24,413 bases of DNA from a virus. The translations under genes were made by a program, and so were the position numbers. Of this stretch, positions 13,462 to 24,413 are shown piece by piece. Below the pieces are notes generated by a model. It made no database searches. It was not told the origin of the DNA and saw only the letters and a program-made list of their open reading frames with translations. Location: positions 1-24,413 of the IMG/VR virus record IMGVR_UViG_3300025467_000071; one strand, written 5' to 3'. Position 1 is the first letter of the stretch. Every line of letters begins with the position of its first letter.

Positions 13462-14268
13462 ATGCCCTGGAAAGTACGTGGAAAATGCGTTTATAAAAAA
13501 GACACCGGTAAAAAAGTCGGTTGTACGAAAGGTTCTGTAAAAAAGTACCTTGCTGCATTACACATAAACGCACATGAATCAAAAACAGGAATAAAACCCT
13601 TTAAACAGTTTTTTGGAGAAAACTTACCTATGGGTGGTTATGCTTCTAACATGCCTACAATGAATGGGGATCAAACAGGGGTAGAAGAAGGAGAGTATTC
13701 ACAAGACACCGGGGATGAAATATCTTTAAATGATAGTGCTAGTAAAGATCAAATAGTAAATGACATTATTGATGACTTAGAAGATCTTAAAACTCATGAT
13801 TGGTCAAAGCCTTTAGATTCTGATTTAATTAAAGCAATGGCTGATTCTTTAAGAGAAGTAGGTATAGAGCCTACTGATTTTGATGCTGCTATGAATGCCT
13901 CTCCAGACAAACAAGAACAATACCTTATTACAGGCCCAAGTTCTTGGAAAGGTGGTAATGGAGCTTTGAATGATTTAAAATCCATTTTAGCTGGTAATGA
14001 ACCACAACCGGTAGATGAAGAAGAAAGTAATCCAGCTGCAGACCTACCTATGGGTACTACTAGTATGGGTGATTCGTTATCTCAAGAAAATTTTATAAAT
14101 CATAAAGGACCAGGACGCCCTGGAGACAGTAAGCGCCACGGTATTAAAAAGCATGCAAGTTTAAGCTCTTTAGATAAAATAGTACATAGTAAAACAGCAA
14201 GCCCTCGTAAAAAGCAATTAGCTCATTGGCAAGCTAATATGCGTAGAGGCAAAGCAAAACGTAGATAA
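13462..14268 (+). CDS. Hypothetical protein with Cys motif, acidic core and basic GRP-containing tail
   Basis: This 268-aa protein has three zones. The N-terminus (residues 1-40) has RGKCVYKKDTGKKVGCTKG followed by a helix (SVKKYLAALHINAHES). It is similar in style to the Cys/Lys/Gly motif of the metallopeptidase two genes upstream. The middle (about 60-200) is acidic and helical. The tail is strongly basic: HKGPGRPGDSKRHGIKKH contains an AT-hook-like PGRPG core, and TASPRKKQLAHWQANMRRGK ends the protein. I associate such motifs with proteins of marine phages but cannot name a function. The mixed acidic and basic layout could suit a DNA-associated or capsid-scaffold protein; this is inference. 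Confidence 0.65.
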   Translation: MPWKVRGKCVYKKDTGKKVGCTKGSVKKYLAALHINAHESKTGIKPFKQFFGENLPMGGYASNMPTMNGDQTGVEEGEYSQDTGDEISLNDSASKDQIVNDIIDDLEDLKTHDWSKPLDSDLIKAMADSLREVGIEPTDFDAAMNASPDKQEQYLITGPSSWKGGNGALNDLKSILAGNEPQPVDEEESNPAADLPMGTTSMGDSLSQENFINHKGPGRPGDSKRHGIKKHASLSSLDKIVHSKTASPRKKQLAHWQANMRRGKAKRR

Positions 14269-14274
14269 TTTGTT

Positions 14275-14297
14275 ATAATAGTGTAAAATACTATTAT
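14275..14297 (+). repeat. Inverted repeat covering the start of the APS kinase gene
   Basis: ATAATAGT (14275-14282) and ACTATTAT (14290-14297) are perfect complements around a 7-base loop. The first two bases of the ATG lie in the right arm. A TATAAT (14274-14279) overlaps the left arm, so this may be an operator on a -10 box or an RNA hairpin masking the start. Confidence 0.5.
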
Positions 14298-15060
14298 GAA
14301 GAAAATACTCGTAATGGGACTGCCTGGTGCAGGCAAAACAACTCTATCTTTAGAGTTAGCTAAGCTATTAGGAGCTACACATTTTAATGCCGATGAAATA
14401 CGCAATGAAATTAATAAAGACCTTAAGTTCAGTGTTGCAGACCGTCTTGAACAGGCTAGAAGAATGGGCGTGTTGTGCGATATTGTTTCTCGCTCTAATA
14501 GCTTTGCGATTGCCGATTTCGTATGCCCTACACCGGAAACTAGACAGGCATTCGGAAAAGCATTCGTAATCTGGGTAGACAGAATTACAGAAGGCAGATT
14601 TGAAGATACAAACAAAATGTTTGTACCCCCTGCTGAGTATGATGTAAGAGTTACAGCTGAAGGTACACCTTTGTTTTGGGCTAACAAAATTAAGAACATT
14701 ATACAGCCTGCATTTGATCCTAAATTACCAACAGCGTTTATGCTCGGTCGTTATCAACCTTTTCATAACGGTCACAAAGCTCTTATTTTAGAAGCTCTCA
14801 ATAGGGTAGGTCAAGTATGTATTGCTATTAGAGATACTAAAGGTACAGATGAAAAAAATCCGTTTGATTTAGATGAAGTAGAAGGTAATATTCGTACTGG
14901 TATGAAAGGCTATGAGAGTAAGTTCACTATTGTTAGAGTACCAAACATTACTAATATATTTTATGGTAGAGATGTCGGATATAAAATAGAACAAATTGAT
15001 TTAGATAAAACCTTACAAGAGATATCAGCTACTAAAATACGTAACGAACTTAAGGTATAA
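14296..15060 (+). CDS. APS kinase-like / HxGH nucleotidyltransferase fusion
   Basis: This 254-aa protein has two domains. Residues 1-137 resemble adenylylsulfate (APS) kinase: P-loop GLPGAGKTT (8-16), NADEIR (31-36), then NKDLKFSVADRLEQARR (40-56) as in the family's DLxFSxxDRxENxRR block, and DFVCPTPETR (74-83) at the place of FISPxxxxR. Residues 146-254 form a compact nucleotidyltransferase with GRYQPFHNGH (151-160; HxGH) and ISATKIR (243-249), as in NMN adenylyltransferase and cytidylyltransferases. The kinase domain would convert APS to PAPS with ATP. Domain order mimics animal PAPS synthases, but the second half is far shorter than ATP sulfurylase, so its substrate is open. A PAPS-using sulfotransferase lies at 19356, making PAPS supply a coherent though unproven role. 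Confidence 0.82.
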   Translation: MKKILVMGLPGAGKTTLSLELAKLLGATHFNADEIRNEINKDLKFSVADRLEQARRMGVLCDIVSRSNSFAIADFVCPTPETRQAFGKAFVIWVDRITEGRFEDTNKMFVPPAEYDVRVTAEGTPLFWANKIKNIIQPAFDPKLPTAFMLGRYQPFHNGHKALILEALNRVGQVCIAIRDTKGTDEKNPFDLDEVEGNIRTGMKGYESKFTIVRVPNITNIFYGRDVGYKIEQIDLDKTLQEISATKIRNELKV

Positions 15061-19342: not shown

Positions 19343-19350
19343 AGTAAGTG
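19343..19350 (+). promoter_or_regulatory. AGTAAGTG box, late-promoter variant
   Basis: AGTAAGTG ends 5 bases before the ATG at 19356, which favours that ATG over the upstream in-frame GTG at 19350. Confidence 0.35.
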
Positions 19351-19355
19351 TGGGT

Positions 19356-20015
19356 ATGTTGATATTTGTTCATGTACCTAAAACAGCAGGCTCTACGTTT
19401 AAATCTCTTATATCAAAAGAGTTTAATTCTAAAGATATTTTAGTTATAGATTCTCCTAGCTGGATTAGCGAGGAATTAATAGTTAATAGATCTAATTTAC
19501 CGGGTAGTGTTGCGCAAAAACCAAACAGTAATATAAAGTTTATGTGCGGACATTTTAAAGCGACTAAAGCTTTAAACATGTATCCAGATGCAACATTAAT
19601 AACTTGGTTAAGAAACCCAGTAGAAAGAGTTGTATCCCAGTATTATTATTATCTAGGAGCTAGTTACACATACGGTGTTAGAACAGAACATAGAACATAC
19701 GATTTAGTAACGTTAGAAGATTTTATTAAATACTCTTCTCATCAAAACATTGCTACTTCTTTATTAGATGTTCCGTTAGATAGATTTAAGTTTATAGGTA
19801 TAAAGGAGCACTTTAAAGAAGAATTAAAAAGGTTTAACAGAGTTATGGGGTTTAATTTAAATCAGCCAACTGTAGATTATAATGTAAATAGTAAAAAACA
19901 AAATATAAACGAAAACTATTCTGTAAGTGAAGAGATACGTGAACTAATAAGATATCACAATAAAAAAGATGTTGAAATGTATGAAGAGTGTTTGAAAAAA
20001 GCAGGATACAAGTAA
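19356..20015 (+). CDS. PAPS-dependent sulfotransferase-like protein
   Basis: The ATG at 19356 is chosen over an in-frame GTG at 19350 because it follows an AGTAAGTG box; this gives 219 aa. The N-terminus MLIFVHVPKTAGSTFKSLI contains the 5'-phosphosulfate-binding loop (PKTAGST, 8-14). WLRNPVERVVSQYYY (84-98) is the 3'-phosphate-binding block with R86 and S94. CGHFKA (64-69) supplies a conserved His between them. These are the hallmarks of the Sulfotransfer_2-type family, which sulfates carbohydrates in eukaryotes and bacteria. No membrane anchor or signal peptide is present, so it would act in the cytoplasm. It would need PAPS, which the kinase fusion at 14296 could provide. A glycan acceptor is likely given the neighbouring glycosyltransferase, but this is inference. 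Confidence 0.82.
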   Translation: MLIFVHVPKTAGSTFKSLISKEFNSKDILVIDSPSWISEELIVNRSNLPGSVAQKPNSNIKFMCGHFKATKALNMYPDATLITWLRNPVERVVSQYYYYLGASYTYGVRTEHRTYDLVTLEDFIKYSSHQNIATSLLDVPLDRFKFIGIKEHFKEELKRFNRVMGFNLNQPTVDYNVNSKKQNINENYSVSEEIRELIRYHNKKDVEMYEECLKKAGYK

Positions 20016-20018
20016 ATA
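20011..20018 (+). promoter_or_regulatory. AGTAAATA box, candidate late promoter
   Basis: Exact AGTAAATA ending 5 bases before the ATG at 20024. The TAA is the stop of the sulfotransferase gene. Confidence 0.4.
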
Positions 20019-20023
20019 GTAAT

Positions 20024-20287
20024 ATGAGTGAACAGCAAGGACCTAGTTTATTGCAAATGGCTTTTAGTCTTTCTGAAACCGGAAAAGACGTTTTAGCAGG
20101 AGCTATAAAATCTGGAGTCATATTAGCTACAGAGGACGTAGTCACAGAAAGACAGTCAATGTGTCTATCATGCGACAAACTTAAAAAAGACGGTATTATA
20201 TCAAGGTGTATGGCTTGTGGGTGTGGTATGAATATAAAAACTCGCTTAGAAAAGTCTAAGTGTCCTTTAAGTAAATGGACCCGATAG
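20024..20287 (+). CDS. Zinc-ribbon-like small protein
   Basis: This is an 87-aa protein when started at the ATG at 20024, which follows an AGTAAATA box; a TTG at 19988 would lengthen it into the preceding gene. The N-terminal half is helical and Ser/Gly-rich (SLLQMAFSLSETGKDVLAGA). The C-terminal half has CLSC (47-50), CMACGC (62-67) and CPLSKW (80-85). Six Cys in a CxxC...CxxCxC...C arrangement probably bind zinc. Similar short proteins occur in phages, with function unknown. It overlaps the downstream glycosyltransferase by 13 bases, so the two may be translationally coupled. Confidence 0.7.
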   Translation: MSEQQGPSLLQMAFSLSETGKDVLAGAIKSGVILATEDVVTERQSMCLSCDKLKKDGIISRCMACGCGMNIKTRLEKSKCPLSKWTR

Positions 20288-21402
20288 TCTCATTAATAAC
20301 ACCTACTCACCGTCCTGATAAGCTTTTACGGTTATATGATTCCATAGCTAAACAAACTGATAAAAGGTTTGAATGGGTAGTAATACCTAACAACAGGGCT
20401 GATGTAACTATACTACCAGTTGAACCGTGGATAAAAATAGTACCCTATAACGGCGGAACTAATATTGGGGAAATTAAAAAATTCGGCTTTATGCAAGGCG
20501 TTGGTGAGTTGTTAGCAGAAGTAGATCACGATGATGAACTTGTACCTACTTGTATAGAGACGCTTATTAATAATAAAGATAAAGGCGATTTTATCTATTC
20601 TAACAATTTAGTATTAGATTCTAATAATAAACCTTATACTTGGGGACCAGATTTTGGGTGGAAATATAGTACCTATAACTATAAAGAAGAAGAGTGTTTA
20701 ATTAATGTAGCGTTTCCACCTTTACCAGCTAATTTTAGTTGGCAATTTTGGGCACCTAATCATATTAGAGTGTGGCGTAAAGACTTTTATAATAAAATAG
20801 GTGGGCATAACTCTAGTTTAAAGGCTTGTGATGATGGGGAATTAATGTGTCGTAGTATGATGTACGGTAAAATACATCATATAAATGAAGTACTCTACAT
20901 ATATTATCTACATTTAGATAACTCTCATTCTCAAAGTGATTTAAAGTTATGGATTGAAAATTACACCGACTATATGCACAAAGCATATACAGTACCTATG
21001 ACAGTTGCTTGGTGTAAAGCTAATAATTATAACATATACAATACTAATACTATTACACTACAGTCTACTAACGCCGGACTTATAGTGTTTGAAGATATAC
21101 GTAACATACGTAACCTAGATGTATACATGATGTTAGCATATAACATATTAATACCTGGAGGTATTTTATTATTAACTAACTCTATAGAAGCAGAAACCAT
21201 TATATCTAGTCCGCATTCTAAACAAATATCATACTGGGATCAAGCGTATAAGACCAACGCTTGTGCCTGTTTTATATCAAATGGTGTACATATAGTAAAC
21301 AACACAGTATATGGATACTTTACTAAAACTACAGAAAACACGCATGTAGCTATATCCAAAACGGATTATTCTTCTATATTGAATAACTACTACCAACAGT
21401 AA
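20275..21402 (+). CDS. GT-A glycosyltransferase (family 2-like) with partial methyltransferase-like tail
   Basis: This 375-aa protein has a GT-A domain in residues 1 to about 230. The N-terminal strand is IVSLITPTHRPDKLLRLYDS, followed by WVVIPNNR. The metal/nucleotide-sugar DxD lies in EVDHDDEL (82-89), and CDDGELMCR (185-193) sits at the position of the catalytic-base segment. From about residue 250 the sequence resembles the second half of a SAM methyltransferase: LIVFEDIRNI, a helix, then NILIPGGILLLTN (PGG at 294-296) and SYWDQAYKT. The Gly-rich SAM-binding motif I expected before it is absent, so this tail is probably non-catalytic or a remnant. It starts within the zinc-ribbon gene. 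The sugar donor and acceptor are unknown. Confidence 0.78.
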   Translation: MDPIVSLITPTHRPDKLLRLYDSIAKQTDKRFEWVVIPNNRADVTILPVEPWIKIVPYNGGTNIGEIKKFGFMQGVGELLAEVDHDDELVPTCIETLINNKDKGDFIYSNNLVLDSNNKPYTWGPDFGWKYSTYNYKEEECLINVAFPPLPANFSWQFWAPNHIRVWRKDFYNKIGGHNSSLKACDDGELMCRSMMYGKIHHINEVLYIYYLHLDNSHSQSDLKLWIENYTDYMHKAYTVPMTVAWCKANNYNIYNTNTITLQSTNAGLIVFEDIRNIRNLDVYMMLAYNILIPGGILLLTNSIEAETIISSPHSKQISYWDQAYKTNACACFISNGVHIVNNTVYGYFTKTTENTHVAISKTDYSSILNNYYQQ

Positions 21403-21851: not shown

Positions 21852-23357
21852 ATGAAAGGCGCAAAAAACATCGTTGTAGTAGGCGGTGGTGCAGCTGGTT
21901 GGTTGACTGCTTTAACGTTACAAAAGCTTTTTTCTACTACCCAAAACATTACTCTAATTGAAAGCGATCAAATAGGTATATTAGGTGCAGGAGAAGGGGT
22001 AGTACCAAGTTTTAATTCCTTTTTATTTAAAATATTAAAACTACCCTTTTATGATTTTATAAAAAGCACTAGTGCTACCTTTAAATATTGTACTGCGTTT
22101 AAAAACTGGAATGGTAAAGAAGAGTTTTGGGTAAATGCATTTGCACCTACTACCATACAACATTATGATAAGGTAATTAACAAAGCACCGTTCATTAAGG
22201 ATACTATTACTAATAGGTATGATATGGTTATACCGCATGCATTTCATTTCGATGCTTCTTTATTAGCTAAATTTTTAAAAGAAAATGCTTTAAAACGAGG
22301 CATACATAGAATAGAAGGTAAAGTTGTATCGTTTAATAATGATACGAACGGCTTTATAAAAGAAATAGTATTTGAAGATGGTCGTAAAGTTAATAGTGAT
22401 TTTGTTTTTGATTGTTCTGGTTTTAAAAGATTAATAATAGGTAAACACTATAATTCTCGTTGGATATGTCTCAAGCATAGATTTCCAGGTAAAGCAGCGT
22501 TACCTTTCTTTCTCGATATAGATAAAGAATACAAACCATACACTCTCACCACTGCTATGAAGCACGGTTGGATGTGGAAAATACCTTTACAGCATCGCTA
22601 CGGTAGTGGGTATATATTTGATTCTGATTATATAACAGAAGATCAAGCAAAAGAAGAAGTTGAACAATATTTAGGTCATTCAATTAAACCTGTTAATCTA
22701 TTTAAATACAGCCCGGGGTATTACGAAAAAATATGCATAAAGAATTGTATGGCTGTAGGGCTTTCTACTGGTTTTTCAGAACCATTAGATTCTAATGCTT
22801 TAGGTGTAGTTGTTACTCTATTAAATACTGGGGTGCTATCAGTAACAAATACATTTGTAAAAATGCTTTCTGATCTTAACAACGAAACGTATAAAGAAGA
22901 ATTTAATAAATTACATTTAGATACAGTTAATAATTGGCACAGTGGTATACAAGTACACTATTTAACTAAACGAACAGATAGTTTGTTTTGGAAAGAGTTT
23001 AGAACAAAATATAAAATATACGATTCTCTTTTAGATTTATTAGAACGCCATAAAACAATTCGCTTAGAAGATGACCCTGTAATGAAAGACGGGCTACCGC
23101 CGTTTCCGCTTTTTAATTGGTTAACGATTTTTAAAAACAAAGAACTTTTAAATACAGACCTATACCCAAGCAAGCAAATAGGTGCTGATATCTTCACCGC
23201 AGAAAATGATTTAAACGATTGCTACATGGAGCCGTTAATGGATAAAAACTATTTTGTGAACAACATTACTAAAGATTGGGGTATTACCGGTTACGAGCCT
23301 TTAGATTTAAAAACAAAACGTTCTTATCGTTTATTGCAAAGATTCAACTCATTTTGA
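21852..23357 (+). CDS. Flavin-dependent tryptophan halogenase family protein
   Basis: This 501-aa protein has the length and motifs of the Trp_halogenase family. An N-terminal FAD-binding GGGAAGWLTALTL (11-23) is followed by GAGEGVVPSF (45-54). FKYCTAFKNW (77-86) supplies K78, which aligns with the catalytic Lys79 of PrnA. HFDASLLAKFLKENAL (132-147) is also family-typical. The diagnostic WxWxIP is GWMWKIP (239-245). GFSEPLDSNALG (307-318) corresponds to the EPLEST block, with Asp313 where PrnA has catalytic Glu346. Such enzymes use FADH2, O2 and halide to halogenate an aromatic substrate and need a flavin reductase, which is not seen here. The substrate is probably not free tryptophan, but sequence alone cannot say. 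Its end overlaps the convergent cyclase gene by 9 bases. Confidence 0.88.
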   Translation: MKGAKNIVVVGGGAAGWLTALTLQKLFSTTQNITLIESDQIGILGAGEGVVPSFNSFLFKILKLPFYDFIKSTSATFKYCTAFKNWNGKEEFWVNAFAPTTIQHYDKVINKAPFIKDTITNRYDMVIPHAFHFDASLLAKFLKENALKRGIHRIEGKVVSFNNDTNGFIKEIVFEDGRKVNSDFVFDCSGFKRLIIGKHYNSRWICLKHRFPGKAALPFFLDIDKEYKPYTLTTAMKHGWMWKIPLQHRYGSGYIFDSDYITEDQAKEEVEQYLGHSIKPVNLFKYSPGYYEKICIKNCMAVGLSTGFSEPLDSNALGVVVTLLNTGVLSVTNTFVKMLSDLNNETYKEEFNKLHLDTVNNWHSGIQVHYLTKRTDSLFWKEFRTKYKIYDSLLDLLERHKTIRLEDDPVMKDGLPPFPLFNWLTIFKNKELLNTDLYPSKQIGADIFTAENDLNDCYMEPLMDKNYFVNNITKDWGITGYEPLDLKTKRSYRLLQRFNSF

Positions 23358-24413
23358 AGTTGCTCTAAACACTCCGCCCCAATCAGCTGGTAAGTTAGCA
23401 TTTCTAAGCTCATTAATTCTTTCTATCATGTTTTCGTAATAGTGAGCTAATTCGGGGTTATAAGTTATTAAGGATTTGGCTAATTGTATAGCATTATCCC
23501 ATCTTTGCATTCTATAATCTGATAAAAATCCGTCATGTATTTGGCCTACATAAGGCTTTTCCATTGTAAGAAAGTTATTTTGTACAGCAGTATAGATCTT
23601 CACACCTTCTTTTTTACCTTTAACAGCTATACAATCTAGTTCAAAACACTTGTATTTGTCTTTAACGTATTCGTAGGTCTTAGGACCAATTACTATCTTT
23701 ACACCGTAAGGTTTAGATTGCCCTTCTAACCTCGAGGCCAAATTAACTCCGTCGCCCAAGCAAGTGTAATCGAAACGCTGAGTACTGCCCATATTACCAA
23801 CAACAACAGTATCTGTGTTGATTCCAAGACCCATTCCAAAGGCTGGCACCCCTTCTTGAGCAATTTCTTTATTAAATTCATCTAGATTACTTAACATTAT
23901 CATTGCTGTTTTCAATGCATTTAATGCATGCTCTTTATCATCTAATGGTGCATTCCAAAAGGCCATTTGTGCGTCACCTATATACTTGTCTAATGTGCCG
24001 TTATTGTCTAGTATAGCTTTAGTCATAGCAGTCATATAACGGTTCATTATCTTTGTTAGTCCTTGTACGTCTTTACCATAATGTTCTGATATAGTAGTAA
24101 AGCCTCTCACGTCAGTAAACATAATAGATAACTCTCTACTATCACCACCTAATCTTAATAGATCTGGATTCTCTTGCAACTTCTCAACCATTGCTGGTGA
24201 TAGATAGGTACCGAATTGTTTCTTGATTTGCTGCTTTAGCTTAAATTCTTGTACAAATCTAAAGAATAAAGCTCCTACCCAGGGTAGTAGTACTGCTAGA
24301 GTAGGCCATGTATAATCTAAAAGATATCCATTATTAACAAATAAACGCGAACCAATAAAAAAGGGTACACACAAGAATACAGTAACTAACAAACCATTTA
24401 GGATATACCCCAG
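23349..24413 (-). CDS. Membrane-anchored class III adenylate cyclase, 5'-truncated by window edge
   Basis: The frame stays open to the last base, so the N-terminus is outside; the TTG at 24392 (residue 1 in this numbering) is not a convincing start. Two hydrophobic helices (about 1-15 and 27-47) lead through a basic linker to FGTYLSPAMVEKL. The cyclase domain follows: FTDVRGFT (metal Asp94), LDKYIGDAQMAFW (adenine-specifying Lys136, metal Asp140), and DYTCLGDGVNLASRLEG with Thr210 at the second substrate position and Asn217/Arg221 of the transition-state pair. All catalytic residues are present, and Thr210 points to the IIIb subclass. It should make cAMP at the inner membrane. The helix-linker layout matches CHASE2-cyclases, so a periplasmic sensor domain may lie beyond the edge. 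Confidence 0.9.
   Translation of the reverse strand: MGYILNGLLVTVFLCVPFFIGSRLFVNNGYLLDYTWPTLAVLLPWVGALFFRFVQEFKLKQQIKKQFGTYLSPAMVEKLQENPDLLRLGGDSRELSIMFTDVRGFTTISEHYGKDVQGLTKIMNRYMTAMTKAILDNNGTLDKYIGDAQMAFWNAPLDDKEHALNALKTAMIMLSNLDEFNKEIAQEGVPAFGMGLGINTDTVVVGNMGSTQRFDYTCLGDGVNLASRLEGQSKPYGVKIVIGPKTYEYVKDKYKCFELDCIAVKGKKEGVKIYTAVQNNFLTMEKPYVGQIHDGFLSDYRMQRWDNAIQLAKSLITYNPELAHYYENMIERINELRNANLPADWGGVFRATSK

Follow-up and report, generated by a model that had tools for sequence, protein, structure and literature searches.

A predicted CHASE2 adenylyl cyclase at the end of a phage curli-type secretion cassette

The gene that is cut off by the right end of the 24.4-kb IMG/VR virus contig IMGVR_UViG_3300025467_000071 (positions 1 to 24,413; hereafter, the window) is almost certainly the terminal gene of a phage curli-type (type VIII) cassette and, judging by its sequence, should encode an inner-membrane adenylyl cyclase with a periplasmic CHASE2 sensor. 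The cyclase is real, intact and phage-borne, and it is ordinary in kind: Wittmers et al. 2022 (PMC9599517) have described this cassette, cyclase included, from marine pelagiphages, so that the window cyclase belongs to an already described kind of phage gene. The additions made here are the predicted CHASE2 domain, which is unmentioned in the text of PMC9599517, a cNMP-binding gene in some of the relatives, two chromosomal cassettes in Caulobacteraceae, and bacterial relatives linked to secretion and adhesins. The domain architecture, the adenylyl-type active site, purifying selection and, in the relatives, a near-constant linkage with csgF, csgG, curlin and FecR genes are all apparent from the sequences; sensing and its coupling to export are what we infer.

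Within the window, the gene is a 354-aa open frame on the minus strand (23349..24413); when the bases of the segment are shuffled, the longest run without a stop averages 72 codons and does not exceed 142. An initial annotation, made from the letters alone, called it the only large minus-strand gene, and the ORF list for the 24.4-kb window indeed contains no other minus-strand frame of comparable size, the second largest (14223-14699) being 158 aa long and overlapping plus-strand ORFs. The cyclase stop overlaps a convergent flavin-halogenase gene by 9 bp. The protein matches PF00211 (Guanylate_cyc, E=7e-20) in Pfam and positions 343-681 of the 681-position PHROG profile phrog_35576 (E=1.5e-121), so that the window carries about half of a known phage family protein, namely its C-terminal 354 aa (full-length residues 332-685, followed by the stop, of a total of about 685).

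The complete protein can be read in two IMG/VR contigs, L002 and L003, which extend through the cyclase gene and, across 11,062 bp, are 99.57% identical to the window (full-length numbering is that of L002, i.e., the window protein residue plus 331). Its 685 aa comprise a helix, CHASE2, three helices, the catalytic domain and a helical tail. The initial annotation placed the sensor, CHASE2 or another, beyond the window; in these near-identical contigs, extended rightwards, CHASE2 (PF05226, residues 18-323 of L002, E=2.1e-40 in Pfam) precedes the three helices, the N-terminal half with this domain thus being read in L002/L003, outside the window itself. CHASE2 family domains face the periplasm. 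The AlphaFold2 model (mean pLDDT 88.5) has helices at 2-24, 309-331, 334-359 and 366-398 flanking CHASE2, in agreement with the suggested membrane anchor, and one helix before CHASE2 with three after it is the receptor-cyclase architecture, found in L002. The window itself encodes, all on the minus strand, membrane helix 2 of the three (full-length 334-359, 24330..24407) and helix 3 leading into the linker before the catalytic domain (366-398, 24213..24311), both delimited from the model; the class III catalytic domain (about 417-607, 23586..24158), delimited by PF00211 and superposition on CyaB 3r5g; and the helical C-terminal tail that ends in the conserved motif W.GV.RATSK (23352..23576). 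Small ORFs of about 125 aa that match this tail only are present at L051:3045-3431, L067:15009-15395 and L080:1500-1874, in phage contigs that have a full cyclase as well. Of the first 65 residues, about 15 differ between L002 and L003, and the remainder is almost identical, which suggests recombination near the gene start.

The catalytic part superimposes on that of P. aeruginosa CyaB (3r5g; Z 23.3, rmsd 1.9 over 189 residues) and Spirulina CyaC (1wc1; Z 22.9), a PDB comparison that covers the catalytic region only, the CHASE2 assignment resting on Pfam. CyaB and CyaC share the catalytic fold and the specificity residues with the window cyclase but have other sensor parts and are cellular genes. 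The PF00211 match, the adenylyl-type residues and the CyaB-like fold all agree with the original call of a class III adenylate cyclase, and the catalytic residues are intact, with Thr at the IIIb position, just as was read from the letters: the metal-binding Asp residues D432 (window residue 101, 24111..24113) and D478 (residue 147, 23973..23975), the adenine-specifying Lys K474 (residue 143, 23985..23987), the class IIIb Thr T548 (residue 217, 23763..23765), and the transition-state Asn N555 (residue 224, 23742..23744) and Arg R559 (residue 228, 23730..23732), all on the minus strand. D432, K474, D478 and R559 are kept in all 75 phage and all 80 bacterial relatives, and position 548 is Thr in 70 of the 75 phage proteins. 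N555 is kept in 73 of 75; the exceptions, Melnitz (L082) and L091, have Ser in place of the transition-state Asn and their activity may be altered. The base-selecting positions F430, K474, I476 and T548 match those of the CyaB/CyaC adenylyl cyclases, and dN/dS between the window and L004-L006, L008, L087 and L020 is 0.05-0.13, with dS near or past saturation in the distant pairs and no value for the L009 pair. Given the conserved catalytic and base-selecting residues and these low ratios, we conclude that selection maintains an adenylyl cyclase active site; conversion of ATP to cAMP is the predicted reaction. The cyclase of L046 (9008-11098) groups with the window clade in its CHASE2 half and has Asp at position 548 and divergent catalytic motifs; its catalytic domain looks exchanged. 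Membership in the PycC family was considered and rejected. The pyrimidine-selecting sets are Y50/D94/R97 in BcPycC, F100/R142/Q144 in EaPycC and F60/K104/F109 in AnPycC (PMC11224242), and the window cyclase has F430, K474, I476, M481 and T548 at the equivalent positions, the first Phe alone being shared, with two of the sets; its only sequenced neighbors are the convergent flavin halogenase and, in L002, GIY-YIG and FecR genes, with no PycTM or PycTIR effector among them.

The full cassette is found in cultured phages. In Melnitz, which infects Methylophilales, and HTVC008M, which infects Pelagibacter, it stands near T4-like baseplate genes and has the order csgF-csgG-curlin repeat-FecR-curlin repeat-cyclase, with the cyclase last. 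The window relatives share with the pelagiphage module of PMC9599517 the order csgF-csgG-curlin-FecR-(curlin)-cyclase, and the window and pelagiphage cyclases belong to the same family, phrog_35576 (42% identity with Melnitz, 43% with HTVC008M); the window phage, however, belongs to another contractile-tail lineage, positions 548/555 differ (Thr/Asn in the window, Asp/Ser in Melnitz, Ser/Asn in HTVC008M), and some window relatives add a cNMP-binding gene. The initial annotation proposed to look for the gene in related phages; relatives were found, and wherever a phage cyclase locus has 6 kb or more of upstream sequence (53 loci, some contigs appearing repeatedly among them), csgF, csgG, curlin and FecR genes are all present, with FecR directly adjacent to the cyclase in 38. 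In a reciprocal sample that starts from csgG, with at least 5.5 kb downstream, the cyclase is present in 47 of 51 loci and FecR in all 51; each sample consists of the best 80 matches, so that the counts give no measure of overall frequency. Of the earlier reading, the phage-encoded receptor-type cyclase stood; membership in the curli cassette, which took database searches to see, had been missed. The phage csgF/csgG curli cluster was first noted in 2020 (PMC7029224), and Buchholz et al. (PMC9004378) proposed the phage CsgG as a regulated pore with a role in lysis, the cyclase being unmentioned there; a literature search for a phage adenylate cyclase by set phrases returned no paper. A T4 late promoter (TATAAATA) lies within 250 bp of csgF in 3 of 64 cassettes against a 2% background, which is uninformative, and a CRP-like site is found near csgF in one of the 64.

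In the window's own lineage, the only visible part of the cassette is the end of FecR: L002 opens with 155 bp that encode its C-terminus (NKLKSNFKGN...NIEQR*); the cyclase lies 1.9 kb downstream, beyond an insertion (L002:159-2048) that includes a GIY-YIG homing endonuclease gene, and both L002 and L003 end before the csgF-csgG-curlin region. An assembly chimera or host chromosome at the right flank was considered and set aside, given that the cyclase gene carries on in both L002 and L003 and that L002 extends as far as FecR. The genome is that of a virus, as originally suspected: besides the IMG/VR record, T4-like terminase and tail sheath genes were identified by blastp to Melnitz in long contigs of the closest relatives, and one long contig of near relatives also has relatives of polymerase, UvsX, gp46/47 and the gp55 sigma factor; no member of the gp23 capsid family was detected in the closest long contigs. 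By these terminase, sheath, polymerase, UvsX, gp46/47 and gp55 relatives, the window phage is assigned to the contractile-tail phages, in a lineage distant from Melnitz.

Phage curli modules have so far had no agreed function. The best overall explanation of the cyclase, which we hold to be somewhat favored over the others taken together, is periplasmic sensing coupled to fiber export and signaled by cAMP; the specific coupling, from an export or envelope cue to cAMP, is about evenly balanced between right and wrong. During infection, the phage would export a curlin-like polymer through CsgG/CsgF; FecR and/or CHASE2 would read a periplasmic cue linked to polymer export or envelope state; and the cyclase would pass this cue on as cAMP to whichever cyclic-nucleotide receptor is available. 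In general this would be a host CRP-type protein, and for one subset of the relatives it may be a phage cNMP-binding protein encoded divergently from csgF. With the pattern of CHASE2, FecR and secretion genes, and with the viral cNMP-binding gene of some phages, what was a list of auxiliary genes can be read as a signaling circuit open to experiment, with a periplasmic cue, cytoplasmic cAMP and a receptor supplied by host or phage. Given that cassette-bearing phages are in culture (Melnitz, HTVC008M), cAMP is measurable during infection.

The strongest support for this mechanism is that the CHASE2 cyclase recurs with FecR and cNMP-binding secretion parts across secretion systems. Alphaproteobacterial CHASE2 adenylyl cyclases (e.g., in Bradyrhizobium, beside FecR/RTX adhesins) have the same CHASE2, helices, class III domain and C-terminal tail, often with a FecR gene upstream as in the phages; they differ in that the identity is 33-40%, residue 548 is Ser in 76 of 80, they form a separate clade, and the linkage is to type I rather than type VIII secretion. 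Of 68 bacterial loci, 30 have a FecR gene no more than 600 bp upstream of the CHASE2 cyclase, and the FecR gene of Bradyrhizobium L130 encodes a giant protein with nidogen, cadherin and RTX domains. Five loci from marine alphaproteobacteria have the cyclase flanked by cNMP-binding genes; in L149, the order by Pfam is OEP, ABC/C39, a cNMP-binding/HlyD fusion that belongs to a type I secretion operon, the CHASE2 cyclase, and two cNMP-binding genes. Thus, bacterial CHASE2 cyclases beyond the phage clade, as judged by their gene neighborhoods, have a connection to surface export as well. Two Caulobacteraceae genomes, of 299 searched, have the complete csgF-csgG-curlin-curlin-FecR-CHASE2 cyclase cassette, on contigs of chromosomal appearance (GC 51-67%, with no recognized phage genes; TonB-type receptor, acyl-CoA dehydrogenase and glycosyltransferase genes nearby, by eye). 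Their cyclases fall within the phage clade (SH-aLRT 98 and 100), a placement suggestive of exchange between the phages and Caulobacteraceae; the tree, midpoint-rooted and from a quick search, does not fix the direction of that exchange. In one of these contigs, a PycTM gene (L120:12491-13084, PF18967, E=8.8e-25) is located 442 bp downstream of the cyclase; in the second genome (L206), a TetR-type gene occupies that position.

Among the alternatives, general reprogramming of the host survives best and is nonetheless rather unlikely. Under this explanation, the cyclase raises cAMP for host CRP-type regulators of metabolism and the envelope, and the linkage to curli genes is historical or a matter of co-expression only. 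The intact active site is compatible with it, and so is the fact that most cassette-bearing phages have no cNMP-binding gene near the cassette, so that a host receptor would be needed there. The linkage with csgF-csgG-curlin-FecR, however, is nearly absolute in both directions (53/53 and 47/51), constitutive cAMP production would not require a conserved CHASE2 sensor, and the bacterial relatives adjoin secretion and adhesin genes as well.

In one group of phages the receptor itself might be viral. The window relatives L008, L031, L046, L086, L096 and L209 have, divergent from csgF, a cNMP-binding gene (in L008, PF00027, E=4.6e-21, with an intact phosphate-binding cassette GEGALVSGAPRNA), the product of which has a hydrophobic C-terminal segment and is a candidate phage cAMP receptor. 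A pore in its C-terminal half was considered and is not callable, this half being modeled at very low confidence. The 24.4-kb window contains no cNMP-binding gene. The gene was found at 19 viral loci, next to the cassette at 6 of them; a further 3 contigs have a CHASE2 gene elsewhere, and one 185-kb viral contig has the cNMP-binding gene without CHASE2; the partnership of cyclase and binding protein in phages is accordingly a lead rather than a rule. That the CHASE2 cyclase and the divergent protein with its hydrophobic C-terminus form a self-contained viral cAMP circuit in this one group is doubtful; if true, the periplasmic signal of the exported amyloid would be passed through cAMP to a viral membrane effector without host regulators.

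An extension of the proposal of Buchholz et al. (PMC9004378), in which the CsgG pore and the cyclase together monitor the envelope and determine when lysis occurs, is improbable. Downstream of the cyclase, 13 of 64 cassettes have a gene for an SLT-type lysozyme and 7 have one of the holin family; ahead of csgF, 39 of 64 encode a 94-aa membrane protein of phrog_18771 (e.g., L043/L044 at -532), with more than one copy in some loci. The hydrophobic segment of the phage cNMP-binding protein would fit as well. Yet the lysis neighbors are a minority and none adjoins the window cyclase, no function is known for phrog_18771, that hydrophobic segment lies in the part of the binding protein that is poorly modeled, and the curlin-repeat genes, superfluous for a simple lysis pore, are retained with the pore in all 53 loci.

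The role of a decoy for, or counter to, cyclic-nucleotide defense of the Pycsar type, raised in the initial annotation, can be given next to no weight: the PADLOC match to PycC (E=4.8e-26) covers only the shared catalytic fold and the PycTM neighbor of one Caulobacteraceae contig is not conserved in the second genome, whereas the substrate-selecting residues are adenylyl-type, unlike the UTP/CTP sets of PMC11224242, and the cyclase is predicted to be membrane-bound with a periplasmic sensor and is locked into the curli cassette. Pycsar systems (PycC with PycTM or PycTIR) have in common with the phage cyclases the class III fold and, as a general idea, a cNMP-binding partner; they differ in that the window cyclase lacks pyrimidine-selecting residues and has a CHASE2 membrane sensor, and no Pycsar effector was detected among the recurrent phage cassette neighbors tested.

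As for the other genes of the window, the one convergent with the cyclase (21852-23357) is of the flavin-dependent tryptophan-halogenase type (PF04820, E=5.6e-92) and stands in a run with sulfotransferase and glycosyltransferase genes (19350-21402). The gene at 14296-15060 encodes an adenylylsulfate-kinase-like domain fused to a cytidylyltransferase-like domain, and the relative of this fusion in L008 adjoins the cNMP-binding gene.
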